Origin: Paludibacter sp. | GTDB taxonomy: Bacteria; Bacteroidota; Bacteroidia; Bacteroidales; Paludibacteraceae | Length of the DNA: 64,000 bases | NCBI GenBank assembly: GCA_024710005.1 | Contig: JANJVQ010000001.1 | Location: 1-64,000 of the forward strand | Direction of reading: 5' to 3' | Made by a program: the position numbers and the translations under genes | Part shown: one piece after another, positions 27,701-32,014 of the stretch | Layout of the letters: each line of letters opens with the position of its first letter | Position numbering within the stretch: the first letter of the stretch is position 1 | The notes under the pieces: model-generated | The model's input: the letters and a program-made list of their open reading frames with translations, nothing else | What the model was told of the DNA's origin: nothing | Databases searched by the model: none

Positions 27701-29287
27701 GTGGATAGCGAATTTGTAGTAGATGTACAACCATCTGAAATTTCAATTGCGCTGCTGGAAAACAAAAGACTGGTTGAATTCAACCGCGAAAGCCGTGAAG
27801 CACGGTTTGCCGTAGGGAATATCTACCTGGGAAGGGTTAAGAAATTAATGCCCGGTTTAAATGCAGCATTTGTAGATGTTGGTTTCGAAAAAGACGCTTT
27901 TCTTCATTATCTTGATTTAGGATCCAATTTCAACACCCTTAACCAATTTACAACGCAGGTGCTGAGCGACCGTAAAAAAGCGCCTTCGATAAATAAGGTT
28001 AAACACCATCCGGAAATTGACAAAAACGGTTCAATCGGTGATGTTCTTAAAACAGGACAGGATATCTTGGTTCAGGTAGCCAAAGAACCTATCTCTACAA
28101 AAGGACCCCGACTGACAGCCGAAGTTTCGATTGCCGGAAGATTTTTAGTACTGATTCCATTTGCCGACAAGGTTTCCGTTTCTCAGAAGATTACTTCTGA
28201 AGAAGAAAGAATACGGCTTAAACAACTGATTCAAAGCATTAAACCCAAAGGATTTGGGGTAATTGTAAGAACAGTTGCAGAAGATAAAAAAGTAGCGGAA
28301 TTAGTCAACGAACTCAATATCTTAGTGAAACGCTGGGAAGAAGCGATTGCAAAATTGCAACAAGCCAAAGGTATTTCACTGATTTTAGAAGAATTAGGTC
28401 GCACGGTGGGAATAATTAGAGATTTATTCAACACCAGTTACAACAATATCCACGTAAACGATCCGGATATTTTTACAGAAGTCAGAGATTATGTAGAACT
28501 GATTGCACCGGACCGAAAAGATATTGTGAAACTTTATAAAGATGACACACCGATTTTTGATCATTTCGGCATTACCAAGCAGATTAAATCCGGCTTTGGT
28601 AAAACGGTATCTTTCAAAAGCGGTGCTTATCTGATCATCGAACACACAGAAGCGTTGCATGTTATTGACGTTAACAGCGGAAACAGATCCAAGAATTCAG
28701 CCGGACAAGAAGGCAATGCATTGGATGTGAATCTGGCTGCTGCAGATGAAATCGCACGTCAGTTACGCTTGCGCGATATGGGTGGTATTATCGTTGTTGA
28801 CTTTATCGACATGCACGAAAATGAAAACAGGCAAAAACTGTATGACAGAATGCGTGATTCCATGTCGAACGACAGAGCAAAACACAACATATTACCACTC
28901 AGCAAGTTTGGTTTAATGCAAATGACCCGGCAACGGGTTCGCCCTGTCACCGATATCAACATTGAAGAAAAGTGCCCGACCTGCTTGGGAACCGGGAAAA
29001 TGCAACCTTCAATATTATTTGTCGATCAGATAGAAGAAAAAATTGACCATTTGGTGAATGGTCTTAAAATTAAAAAATTTGCATTGCACATTCATCCGTA
29101 TGTTGAGGCTTTTATCTCTAAAGGCATCAGTTCATTGAAGTTGAAATGGAAACTCAAATATGGTGTAGGCTGTAAAATCATTGCCTCACAAGAAATGGGA
29201 TTCCTGCAATACAAATTTTACGATGGTAAGGGGAATGAAATTAACCTGAAACAGGAATTGGAAAAGCATGATGAAATCAAAGCTTGA
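27701..29287 (+). CDS. rng: Ribonuclease G/E family protein
   Basis: 528 residues, RNase G-like in length, without the long E. coli RNase E tail. It opens with an S1-type RNA-binding domain (EARFAVGNIYLGRVKKLMPGLNAAFVDVG, read as short motifs NIYLGRV and GLNAAFVDVG). The DNase I-like core holds the metal aspartates in HVIDVNSG and VVDFIDM, and the zinc link CPTCLGTG is at about residue 425. It cleaves AU-rich single-stranded RNA, including 5S/16S rRNA precursors and mRNA. The start is a GTG (VDSEFVVDVQP); no ATG is better placed. Confidence 0.94.
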   Translation: MDSEFVVDVQPSEISIALLENKRLVEFNRESREARFAVGNIYLGRVKKLMPGLNAAFVDVGFEKDAFLHYLDLGSNFNTLNQFTTQVLSDRKKAPSINKVKHHPEIDKNGSIGDVLKTGQDILVQVAKEPISTKGPRLTAEVSIAGRFLVLIPFADKVSVSQKITSEEERIRLKQLIQSIKPKGFGVIVRTVAEDKKVAELVNELNILVKRWEEAIAKLQQAKGISLILEELGRTVGIIRDLFNTSYNNIHVNDPDIFTEVRDYVELIAPDRKDIVKLYKDDTPIFDHFGITKQIKSGFGKTVSFKSGAYLIIEHTEALHVIDVNSGNRSKNSAGQEGNALDVNLAAADEIARQLRLRDMGGIIVVDFIDMHENENRQKLYDRMRDSMSNDRAKHNILPLSKFGLMQMTRQRVRPVTDINIEEKCPTCLGTGKMQPSILFVDQIEEKIDHLVNGLKIKKFALHIHPYVEAFISKGISSLKLKWKLKYGVGCKIIASQEMGFLQYKFYDGKGNEINLKQELEKHDEIKA

Positions 29288-29290
29288 ATT

Positions 29291-29324
29291 AAAGGCCGTA
29301 CTGCATTGTACGGCCTTTTTTTTT
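29291..29324 (+). terminator. Intrinsic terminator of rng
   Basis: AAAGGCCGTAC (29291-29301), a 6-base loop, then GTACGGCC and nine T. A strong classic terminator that begins four bases after the stop. Confidence 0.9.
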
Positions 29325-29344: not shown

Positions 29345-29375
29345 TTTGCTATTTCTAAAAAAGAGCGTATATTTG
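29345..29375 (+). promoter_or_regulatory. Promoter of the tRNA-Gly cluster
   Basis: TTTG (29345-29348), 19 bases, TATATTTG (29368-29375): a perfect match with ideal spacing. A small 6-bp hairpin (29380-29394) starts at the predicted transcript start. The true tRNA begins 185 bases downstream, after the two decoy units. Confidence 0.8.
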
Positions 29376-29401
29376 CACTCCGATTGCGAATCGGGGTATT
29401 T

Positions 29402-29559
29402 GCGAAAATAGCTCAGTTGCCAGAGAATAGACAACAATATGCTCTACCAACTGAGATTAAGTAAGGAAAGTTTATATAATGCGAAAATAGCTCAGTTGCC
29501 AGAGAATAAATAACAATATGCTCTACCAACTGAGATTAAGTAAGGAAAGTTTGTACAAT
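29402..29559 (+). repeat. Two 79-bp tandem partial tRNA-Gly units with an antisense D-arm
   Basis: Units 29402-29480 and 29481-29559 differ by four substitutions. Each starts with the first 18 bases of the true tRNA-Gly (GCGAAAATAGCTCAGTTG) at the exact 79-base period that the true tRNA at 29560 continues. They then diverge. Each unit has a reverse copy of the tRNA D-arm (GCTCTACCAACTGAG at 29441-29455 and 29520-29534). Within a unit it can fold back on the local D-arm copy with 12 of 14 pairs (16-base loop), while with the true tRNA D-arm (29570-29584) it pairs perfectly over 15 bases. There is no anticodon or T-arm, so these are not functional tRNAs. Confidence 0.9.
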
Positions 29560-29632
29560 GCGAAAATAGCTCAGTTGGTAGAGCATAACCTTGCCAAGGT
29601 TAGGGTCGCGGGTTCGAGTCCCGTTTTTCGCT
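29560..29632 (+). tRNA. tRNA-Gly (anticodon GCC)
   Basis: 73 nt. The acceptor GCGAAAA pairs with TTTTCGC and there is a U discriminator base, as is usual for tRNA-Gly. The D-arm is GCTC-AGTTGGTA-GAGC, the anticodon arm TAACC-TTGCCAA-GGTTA gives GCC, and the T-arm is GCGGG-TTCGAGT-CCCGT. CCA is not encoded. It is preceded by two partial tandem copies of its own 5' half. Confidence 0.97.
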
Positions 29633-29640
29633 CAAAACAT

Positions 29641-29686: not shown

Positions 29687-29770
29687 GCCCAGATGGTGAA
29701 ATTGGTAGACACGCTAGTTTCAGGGACTAGTGGCCGCAAGGCTGTGCAGGTTCGAGTCCTGTTCTGGGCA
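29687..29770 (+). tRNA. tRNA-Leu (anticodon CAG)
   Basis: 84 nt class II tRNA. Acceptor GCCCAGA / TCTGGGC, anticodon arm CTAGT-TTCAGGG-ACTAG with CAG, variable arm TGGCCGCAAGGCTG, T-arm CAGG-TTCGAGT-CCTG. CCA is not encoded. Third base-pair details are normal. Confidence 0.96.
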
Positions 29771-29784
29771 CACTTTAACTTCAT

Positions 29785-29871
29785 GCGCAGGTGGTGAAAT
29801 TGGTATACACGCTACTTTGAGGGGGTAGTGCCGGTTACGGCGTGTGAGTTCGAGTCTCATCCTGCGCACCA
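29785..29871 (+). tRNA. tRNA-Leu (anticodon GAG), CCA encoded
   Basis: 84 nt plus an encoded CCA (29869-29871). Acceptor GCGCAGG / CCTGCGC, anticodon arm CTACT-TTGAGGG-GGTAG with GAG, class II variable arm, T-arm TGAG-TTCGAGT-CTCA. The other three tRNAs of the window lack CCA. It ends one base before the stop of the convergent CDF gene. Confidence 0.96.
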
Positions 29872-29872
29872 A

Positions 29873-30769
29873 TCATTTCTTTACATACGGTTCCGTATGA
29901 ATATTTGTTACTGTTTTTTCTCCGAATTTCTCTCTTAAACTGACTTCAATCTCAGTTGCTACATCATGTGATTTCACAAAGCTGATGTCTTTATCTAATT
30001 TAATGTGCACGTCAATCGCGAAGATATTACCTATTTTGCGTGTTTTCAGGTTATGTTGAAAGATAACATCCGGATGTGACTCAATTACATCGATAATCGA
30101 CTTCTCTGTTTCCTGAGGCAATGACCTTTCGAGTAATTCATGTATACTTGGCATCCCGAGTTCAAAAGCAACCTTGAGAATAAAGAAACTGACGATAACC
30201 CCGGCTATGGGGTCGAGTATCCGCCATGATTCGCCTAAGAATATAGCACCGGAAATACCGAGGGCAGTCCCGATGGAAGAAAAGGCATCGGAACGGTGAT
30301 GCCAGGCATTGGCTATTACAGCATTGCTGTTGATTTTATCACCTACAATCTTCGTGTACCAGAATAAAGCTTCTTTGGATATGATAGAAATAATTGCTGC
30401 GAACAATGCCAGATAAGTAGGTTGTTCCAGTACCCCACCATTAACAACCTGTATTATTTTGGATATACCACTCCAGAAAATACCAATTCCCACCAATATC
30501 AAAGCCAGACTAATCAACAATGTGGCAAAAGTTTCATACTTACCATGACCATACCGGTGATCTTCATCTTTTTCTTTTCCGGATATGCCAATGAAAATAA
30601 TCACAAACAGGTCGGTAATAAAATCAGACAACGAATGAATACCATCCGCAATCATGGCTGTACTTTTACCTAAAAAACCGGCGATAATTTTCAATATGGT
30701 TAAAACCATATTAACTGCAAATCCAACCCAGGTAACTTTCCTGGCTTCCTTTACTCTATTCATAATCAT
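29873..30769 (-). CDS. Cation diffusion facilitator (FieF-like)
   Basis: 298 residues. Six membrane helices in the first 205, with the two metal-site motifs HSLSD (about residue 45, helix 2) and HHRSD (about residue 157, helix 5), then a cytoplasmic CTD. It exports Zn2+ or Fe2+/Mn2+ in exchange for protons; the D/H pattern suggests the FieF-like branch. It begins three bases after the stop of another CDF gene, so the two form an operon. A second ATG two codons on is equally usable. It is convergent with the tRNA cluster. Confidence 0.92.
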   Translation of the reverse strand: MIMNRVKEARKVTWVGFAVNMVLTILKIIAGFLGKSTAMIADGIHSLSDFITDLFVIIFIGISGKEKDEDHRYGHGKYETFATLLISLALILVGIGIFWSGISKIIQVVNGGVLEQPTYLALFAAIISIISKEALFWYTKIVGDKINSNAVIANAWHHRSDAFSSIGTALGISGAIFLGESWRILDPIAGVIVSFFILKVAFELGMPSIHELLERSLPQETEKSIIDVIESHPDVIFQHNLKTRKIGNIFAIDVHIKLDKDISFVKSHDVATEIEVSLREKFGEKTVTNIHTEPYVKK

Positions 30770-30772
30770 AAT

Positions 30773-31672
30773 TTAATGTGAACAATTTTCGAAGCAACAA
30801 CTCTCATTTTTTGTTTCGAATTCTATGGTTGCATGTTGAATATTCAAGGTTTTCAGTTCGTCCCTGACTTTGTTCTTCAATACAGATATTTCATCCAGTG
30901 TCAGCGCTTTATTCAAAACAATGTGGGTAGTTACTACATTATATTCTCCATCTACCGACCAACTGTGAAAATCATGCATGGATTCAACATCTTCAAATGC
31001 AGTTATTCGTTCCTTTATTTCATCCATGTCAATTTCATCGGGAGTTCCCTGAAGAATGATGTGCATGCTGGATTTGATATTCCGGAATACATGTATCAGG
31101 ATGTAAATTGAAATCAATACCGACAAAATCGGGTCAATTACAGGCACATCAAAAAAATACATGATGACAGAGCCAATCAGGATAGCCCCCCACCCCAGCA
31201 CATCTTCCCACAGATGCAACGATACCACCTTTTCATTCAGAGAACTACCTTTTCTTAATCGCAATACAGCTACTCCGTTTATGATAATTCCCAGAATCGC
31301 CAATAGAAACATACCTTCCACATTTGTTTCCTGGGGATTGAATATACGGGGAACCGTTTCGAACAGAATAAGGATGCTACCTACCAGCAAAACGACCGAA
31401 TTGATGATTGCACCCAACAGAGAAAAACGCTTGTAACCATAAGAATACTTCTCATCACTTCCTTTTTTCGACAATCTTTGAAAGTACCAGGCCAATCCAA
31501 GCGAAATGCTATCGCCGAAATCATGTACGGCATCTGAAAGAATCGCAACGCTATTTGTCAGTAATCCGCCTATGATTTCTATGATGGTAAAACCAAAGTT
31601 CAGGAAAAAAGCGATACCTATATTTTTCTCACTGTTGTGGTGGTGATGATCTGAGCTTTTAATTTGATGCAT
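30773..31672 (-). CDS. Cation diffusion facilitator (CzcD/ZitB-like, His-rich N-terminus)
   Basis: 299 residues from the ATG at 31672 (the longer frame starts with TTG). A short His-rich segment (DHHHH) precedes helix 1, as in zinc CDF proteins. The metal motifs are HDFGD in helix 2 and HLWED in helix 5, a Zn-type pattern. The C-terminus ends with a Cys/His cluster (CCFENCSH), which could bind metal. With the next gene it makes a two-gene metal-efflux operon of two different CDF branches. Confidence 0.92.
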   Translation of the reverse strand: MHQIKSSDHHHHNSEKNIGIAFFLNFGFTIIEIIGGLLTNSVAILSDAVHDFGDSISLGLAWYFQRLSKKGSDEKYSYGYKRFSLLGAIINSVVLLVGSILILFETVPRIFNPQETNVEGMFLLAILGIIINGVAVLRLRKGSSLNEKVVSLHLWEDVLGWGAILIGSVIMYFFDVPVIDPILSVLISIYILIHVFRNIKSSMHIILQGTPDEIDMDEIKERITAFEDVESMHDFHSWSVDGEYNVVTTHIVLNKALTLDEISVLKNKVRDELKTLNIQHATIEFETKNESCCFENCSH

Positions 31673-32014
31673 GATGCGTGATATAATATGAAACAAAACA
31701 AATTAATTTGGTCCTTGTTCAGTGTGGAATTAATTTCAGACAAAAATAGAATTAAATAATTAATATTCATTGTTGTCAAGTGAAAAATATTGAGATTCTT
31801 CGCTACGCTCAGAATGACAGCGTGTTGTGATATGACTTTGATATTGTCATCTCGAACGAAGTAAGAGATCTTATTTATAGTTCTTAGTGCCCTATTCCGG
31901 AACTTCTGTACCGGGTTATTTGAATGATTAATATTTCAAAAAAGCCGGCAAATAAACAAGAGATTTGCAATAAAAAACGTACTTTTGTGGAAATGAGTTT
32001 AAATACTGTTTTCA
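31673..32014. other. Divergent intergenic with an inverted pair of dispersed repeats
   Basis: The repeat 'AGATTCTTCGCTACGCTCAG...' (31797-31826) and its reverse-oriented relative (31850-31877, TGTCATCTCGAACG..) form an imperfect inverted pair like that at 5992-6181. A -7 box, TACTTTTG (31980-31987), lies before the next plus-strand gene. There is no other feature. Confidence 0.6.

Follow-up and report, generated by a model that had tools for sequence, protein, structure and literature searches.

Why is a tRNA-Gly gene of Paludibacter sp. preceded, within its own transcription unit, by two copies of its 5' end, each carrying an antisense of its D-arm? The arrangement lies in the 64,000-nucleotide stretch of DNA analysed here (the window), and the same design was found in other genomes: one to four repeats in a tRNA transcript, upstream of the tRNA, each with a copy of the tRNA 5' part and then an antisense D-arm. 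Judged from sequence and folding models, it could serve to switch tRNA production. In bacteria, the level of a tRNA is taken to depend mostly on its promoter and on decay. If these leaders misfold their own tRNA, they would add a control at the folding or processing step, isoacceptor by isoacceptor. If they are selfish, they would form a family of hairpins that is specific to partially duplicated tRNA genes and occurs in two phyla. In both cases the recurring layout makes a sharp prediction that is testable with one tRNA gene.

Layout of the Gly-GCC locus

The features of the locus are the following.

27701-29287: ORF, taken to be an RNase G/E-type gene, which ends 5' of the terminator
29291-29318, + strand: intrinsic terminator of the upstream RNase G/E-type gene (11-bp stem and T run)
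29345-29375, + strand: promoter, read from the sequence (TTTG at 29345-29348, 19 nt, then TATATTTG at 29368-29375)
29402-29480, + strand: unit 1, 79 nt, from sequence and repeat search
29402-29419, + strand: unit 1, exact copy of tRNA-Gly nt 1-18
29420-29437, + strand: unit 1, insert beginning with CC (CCAGAGAATAGACAACAA), which halts local pairing past G18
29438-29455, + strand: unit 1, 18-nt D-arm antisense (tRNA nt 11-28), inverted repeat of 100%
29456-29480, + strand: unit 1, spacer, with homology to the original leader of the tRNA
29481-29559, + strand: unit 2, 79 nt, 95% identical to unit 1, from repeat search
29481-29498, + strand: unit 2, exact copy of tRNA-Gly nt 1-18
29499-29516, + strand: unit 2, insert beginning with CC
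29517-29534, + strand: unit 2, 18-nt D-arm antisense, inverted repeat of 100%
29535-29559, + strand: unit 2, spacer adjoining the tRNA
29560-29633, + strand: tRNA-Gly(GCC), intact
29570-29587, + strand: tRNA nt 11-28 (D-arm), complementary to the antisense of both units
29687-29771, + strand: tRNA-Leu(CAG), 3' of tRNA-Gly, without units
29785-29871, + strand: tRNA-Leu(GAG), 3' of tRNA-Gly, without units

The RNase G/E-type gene was named from reading of its protein alone, and its terminator keeps it apart from the tRNA transcription unit. The promoter is of the Bacteroidetes type. The repeat search found 79-nt direct repeats at 29401-29479 and 29480-29558, and the tRNA register sets the units at 29402-29480 and 29481-29559; this agreed with the original prediction of two tandem 79-base units in tRNA register behind the promoter at 29345-29375, each starting with the first 18 bases of tRNA-Gly. 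The antisense had been described as a perfect 15-base match, and it is perfect, but its length was understated since it covers 18 nt (29438-29455 and 29517-29534 against 29570-29587). Local pairing within a unit has the two mismatches claimed for the 15-mer and three over 18 nt, and the spacer of each unit is about 25 nt.

Promoter, units and tRNA follow one another in the same direction, and no terminator interrupts them. The element TAnnTTTG also stood 5' of unit 1 in Gly-GCC arrays from related species, it was absent from the inside of 23/23 Bacteroidales arrays, and in two genomes that have no units at this locus (G437 and G034) it precedes the tRNA itself. The sigma-70-like TATAAT or TACAAT at unit ends reach right up to the first base of the unit or tRNA that follows, so there is no room for a transcription start there. 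The units are predicted to lie inside the transcript, as had been supposed. Directly after the tRNA cluster, on the minus strand, there are two adjoining genes (29873-31696), presumably cation diffusion facilitator transporters from our reading of the sequence.

The 300 nt upstream of every tRNA gene but one Ser gene of the same genome were scanned for antisense with no pattern. Matches of 16-18 nt were found at three tRNA genes only and the longest elsewhere was 9 nt, so the matches of the units at this locus are not chance. The three arrays belong to this Gly-GCC gene, a second Gly-GCC gene and one Gly-UCC gene, and each antisense fits its own tRNA. At the second Gly-GCC locus (L039, G000:C1), a truncated extra copy (TGCGAAAATAGCTCAGTTTCATTAA) stands right before the single unit.

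Predicted folding and a candidate mechanism

The last unit plus the tRNA of 60 arrays was folded with RNAfold. The antisense was predicted to sit on the true D-arm in 60/60 arrays, and the antisense:D-arm fold beat the leader plus cloverleaf in all 60 (median -10.7 kcal/mol), a figure that overstates the block, as RNAfold leaves out tRNA tertiary energy and favours large multiloops. With the unit's acceptor copy barred from pairing, the antisense:D-arm fold was favoured in 49 of the 60, with a median of -4.3 kcal/mol, and -2.5 for Gastranaerophilales alone. Tertiary energy, modifications, proteins and kinetics are outside the model, so the true balance could be near even. Precursor misfolding, which had been proposed for a check by folding software, was predicted here: among 44 tRNA precursors of this genome, the three arrays were the three strongest predicted misfolders (-16.0, -12.4 and -10.2), and the next two precursors stand behind a near-identical tandem tRNA. 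When the window transcript was folded as growing prefixes, local hairpins came first; the D-arm is captured by either antisense as soon as tRNA nt 21-28 have been made, and the native acceptor stem never dominates. A swapped cloverleaf, in which the acceptor copy of the unit pairs with the 3' strand of the tRNA, appeared in most minimum-energy folds, and it is partly favoured by the energy model and was not taken as main evidence.

The choice of folds that the original prediction saw in the primary transcript is supported by the collinear, terminator-free layout and the 60/60 predicted pairings; actual regulation is inferred, and a stable small RNA, which it had also raised, is no more than a candidate. 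We favour, at somewhat less than even confidence, the reading that the units are a cis-acting competitor ('anti-tRNA') leader, gating tRNA folding or RNase P processing. The units would be transcribed first, and each would fold into a weak local hairpin (nt 11-18 copy with antisense, 8 bp), which the CC insert would keep from pairing further. The emerging true D-arm would pair better with the antisense (15-18 bp) and be disrupted, and the acceptor stem could be pushed off its native partner, sometimes onto the copied acceptor strand of the unit. The RNase P cut would be blocked until the local hairpin recaptures the antisense or the leader is cut away, and the balance would set the share of each transcript maturing to tRNA. 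Several units would mean several antisense strands, and might give stronger or steeper control. Such competition in cells would lower or delay maturation, and the balance might be set by RNase P supply, growth rate, or a ligand or protein on the insert. Since units precede each of the two Gly-GCC genes of the genome, a block could only be a partial one. In a published study, binding of bacterial RNase P is inhibited when the leader pairs with the 3' end of the tRNA (PMC9433436).

Distribution, conservation and rival readings

A pattern scan of 85,000 species, one genome per species, matched 41 stretches, and the design was found only in Bacteroidales around Paludibacter and in Candidatus Gastranaerophilales (Melainabacteria), which are unrelated groups of bacteria. 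A match in Spirochaetota (L129) is two opposed tRNA genes with no unit, and a 'Clostridiaceae' match (L108), which the genome database places in one order with the Gastranaerophilales genome G440, is probably a mislabelled MAG. Units were carried by 9 of 48 genomes in the genus of the window; across its order, with 393 genomes sampled, its own genome was the sole carrier. In the Gastranaerophilales order 28/286 genomes carried units, and a reversed control pattern had zero matches in these 286 genomes. A pattern-free BLAST search of 60 relatives found more arrays in species of the genus, at Gly-GCC/Leu-Leu, Gly-GCC/Leu-UAA and Gly-UCC loci. Arrays are often at contig ends (e.g. L045/L121, L193, L197, L203, L226 and L238); they tend to interrupt assembly, so that both the number of copies and the number of carriers come out too low.

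The tRNAs preceded by units include Gly (GCC, UCC, CCC), Trp, Lys, Arg (ACG, CCU, CCG), Val, Ala and Asp. A pattern-free look at one genome added Thr, Phe, Met, and a Trp whose D-arm is another one, as well as Leu and Pro arrays bearing a second class of insert. Among 103 distinct units, all 84 with readable downstream sequence had a same-strand tRNA 3' of them (84/84, by a search pattern that itself contained tRNA sequence), and the other 19 run off contig ends. In L227, tRNA-Tyr and the Gly-UCC unit are separated by a terminator-like hairpin (CTCGGTTGA...TCAACTGAGTTTTTTT) with a stem that resembles the P1 of the unit.

The antisense follows its own tRNA. D-arm and antisense differ together from array to array: Gly-UCC has GTTGATAGAG and CTCTATCAAC, Arg has D-loop GGATAGAGC with antisense GCTCTATCC, Asp has D-loop GGTTAGAGC with antisense GCTCTAACC, Ala has CAGCTG for both, and a Trp array located without any pattern has D-arm GTTCAGTTGGTAGAAC with antisense GTTCTACCAACTGAAC. 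Further cognate antisense sequences are CTCTATCC, CTCTAACC and CCAGCTG. Behind the copied G18 (or G19) the next base is nearly always C, and the one after it is C or T in most cases, so that local pairing ends there. One Arg-CCG array has a mismatch in its local arm but an antisense that is fully complementary to the true D-arm, and its two units show compensatory changes in the insert hairpin. The antisense was Watson-Crick paired with the local nt 11-18 copy in 678/720 cells and with the true D-arm in 1318/1366 cells, both figures being inflated by pattern selection. Two mutually exclusive helices share the antisense strand and both are kept by evolution, as expected of a riboswitch-type element.

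This tuning of the antisense to the cis tRNA where D-loops differ argues against another reading, in which the units are released as small RNAs of 79-100 nt acting in trans, e.g. on unfolded pre-tRNAs or on tRNA 5' halves sharing the D-arm. It would agree with each unit being a closed hairpin and with the covarying insert stems, and tandem copies would raise the dosage. Release would come from RNase P at the tRNA-like 5' ends or from RNase E-type cuts in the AU-rich spacer, yet a unit has no acceptor 3' strand and so is no RNase P substrate by itself. We consider this reading unlikely, and return to the competitor leader.

Within locus groups, pairwise identity was 0.92-1.00 for the antisense, 0.89-1.00 for the tRNA, 0.57-0.95 for the insert and 0.52-0.75 for the spacer, with the apparent antisense conservation inflated because most loci outside the genus were picked by a pattern demanding part of the antisense. 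In the arrays of the genus itself the antisense is about as conserved as the tRNA, with spacers down to about 57% identity, and in the genus relatives from BLAST, chosen without pattern, it is intact or nearly so. The pattern had missed G436, whose array is therefore an unbiased example; here the antisense is changed to CTCTGCC and D-arm pairing is kept through G-U. Acceptor copies were 84% identical in first units and 99% in last units; those of first units decay, so the acceptor copy is probably not needed.

In a tree of the neighbouring RNase G/E protein, the eight included carriers of the genus formed one clade (100/100), and units were found in 0/22 other species of the tree. At the locus of the window, two units are present in G000, G029, G006 and G436, at least one before the contig end in G003 and G010, and zero in G034 and the nearest relative G437. 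The leader of G437 is the expected product of simple recombination between direct repeats. The G437 and G029 leaders show that a unit duplicates the tail of the leader together with the start of the tRNA, and has an inverted copy at the junction.

The latter structure would suit neutral debris, in which an inverted copy would have come from template switching during replication at the D-arm and then been multiplied by tandem duplication, and so would the decayed acceptor copies of first units. The original prediction had proposed that relatives be checked for such debris, and on the whole the outcome speaks against it: one clade keeps an intact antisense beside diverged spacers, although G437 is unit-free at this locus. 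Debris is hard to reconcile with antisense and nt 10-18 being kept over a divergence that left spacers at 52-75% identity. Moreover, tandem direct repeats should vanish quickly, yet 8/8 clade members in the tree retain at least one array, and the same design recurs in a second phylum. We regard this origin as very unlikely. As for the competitor leader, the loss of units (G437 and G034) and the decay of the first acceptor copy count against it, as do some related Thr arrays of Gastranaerophilales in which no antisense is evident.

The inserts bear on the main rival to the competitor leader. They are short and variable in Paludibacter and form a hairpin in Gastranaerophilales. A MAFFT/RNAalifold consensus of the first-class inserts recovered only P1, since stem lengths differ. 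The second class, found in Gastranaerophilales, has the form AAGGACTCC-stem-ATTRAGTAT-stem-GGAGGG and was present in 48/286 genomes with about 105 copies. It has a conserved core and a covarying stem, with 2-4 pair types at each of four apical positions and no break in 49 distinct sequences. Its usual place (L309-L338; L267-L269, L271) is among tandem, truncated copies of the 5' part of a Leu, Val, Pro, Thr or Met tRNA. It had no Rfam match in the 14 loci scanned, and seems to be a new RNA motif by itself.

The second-class insert is sometimes outside tRNA leaders; L327, L328 and L322 have it in intergenic repeats of the dispersed kind, and L329 has it in partial copies of the 3' part of tRNA-Ile. 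Near position 1501 of L327 and L328 it lies inside a 19-bp inverted repeat that is itself part of a dispersed intergenic repeat away from any tRNA, which suggests that this hairpin can move. In L329, around 1240-1830, an intact tRNA-Ile(GAU) is followed by two partial 3' copies including terminators; these partial copies have a third hairpin (ACTCTGCCGA...GAGAGG, loop GTGACTAAATGTCAC), and one has the second-class insert in its T-arm.

The main rival is a selfish or mechanistically driven hairpin repeat, a palindromic module spreading between tRNA genes on partial tandem duplications. It would stay because an intact tRNA is always left downstream, and antisense and 5' copy would be its target-derived ends. 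We hold it possible but rather doubtful. The presence of the second-class insert in dispersed repeats and tRNA-Ile copies speaks for it, scattered copies at unrelated sites being what a REP/MITE-like mobile hairpin should show, as do insert sequences that are alike between different tRNAs of one genome, the copy number varying from 1 to 4, and the Thr arrays just mentioned. Against it, all readable first-class units, picked with a pattern that contained tRNA sequence, are tRNA leaders and the Paludibacter carriers are one clade, not scattered. The antisense includes D-arm nt 19-25, often without a good local partner, and this part is kept as well as the tRNA. Phages, plasmids and viral contigs (IMG/VR) gave no match by blastn or by the specific unit pattern; two IMG/VR viral contigs (L247 and L248) match a looser pattern and are probably opposed tRNA genes. 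The selfish repeat and the competitor leader are not exclusive.

A wider form of the competitor leader can be put forward only tentatively. The arrays would be a new cis-regulatory RNA class controlling tRNA genes, in which a structured insert in tandem riboswitch-like leaders would decide whether the antisense is held locally or seizes the nascent cognate D-arm, thereby setting the supply of chosen isoacceptors at folding or processing in Bacteroidales and Melainabacteria.

Comparison with known systems

No description of such arrays was found in the open-access papers searched, and the arrays matched no known RNA family of Rfam release 15 in the window or in 22 related loci. The arrangement is conserved and apparently undescribed. 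A group I-type intron with the antisense as guide was considered since the antisense bridges nt 18/19, and was ruled out by units of 79-100 nt, a tRNA that is intact without splicing, and the decay of first-unit acceptor strands. An integron attC was rejected because the arm order (GTT...AAC) is opposite to that of attC.

Integrating elements or CRISPR spacers leave tRNA fragments, giving a partial tRNA gene beside an intact one (PMC9897764). Our units differ from these in the tandem 5' part, the antisense D-arm and the conserved upstream promoter. Duplication of an att site by an integrative element was rejected, as the 79-nt units are contiguous, no integrase-type ORF or mobile element adjoins them in the ORF list of the window, and phages and plasmids gave no match.

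Riboswitch-type leaders have in common with the units a local P1 whose 3' strand, here the antisense, may switch to an expression platform, a structured insert within P1, and tandem copies. Unlike them, the units would have the tRNA D-arm as platform, the Bacteroidales inserts are short, and no Rfam family matched.

The 178-bp repeats of E. coli tyrT, with the rtT RNA, are also tandem repeats with a piece of the neighbouring tRNA, and have an Rfam family. They lie downstream of the gene and repeat the tRNA 3' end, whereas our units stand before the gene and join a copy of its 5' end to an antisense D-arm, and the window had no rtT match in Rfam.

T-box leaders resemble the units in being a 5' leader RNA in which an alternative pairing involving a tRNA sets gene output. 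T-box covariance models were unmatched: cmscan of the window at the gathering threshold gave tRNAs only, and the 22 related loci had no T-box match at E<=5 or E<=1. The antisense is limited to tRNA nt 11-28, and T-box-type pairing with the 3' end or anticodon was not found. T-box leaders precede mRNAs and sense charged or uncharged tRNA in trans through the specifier and the 3' end, whereas the units precede the tRNA gene itself and pair with its D-arm in cis.
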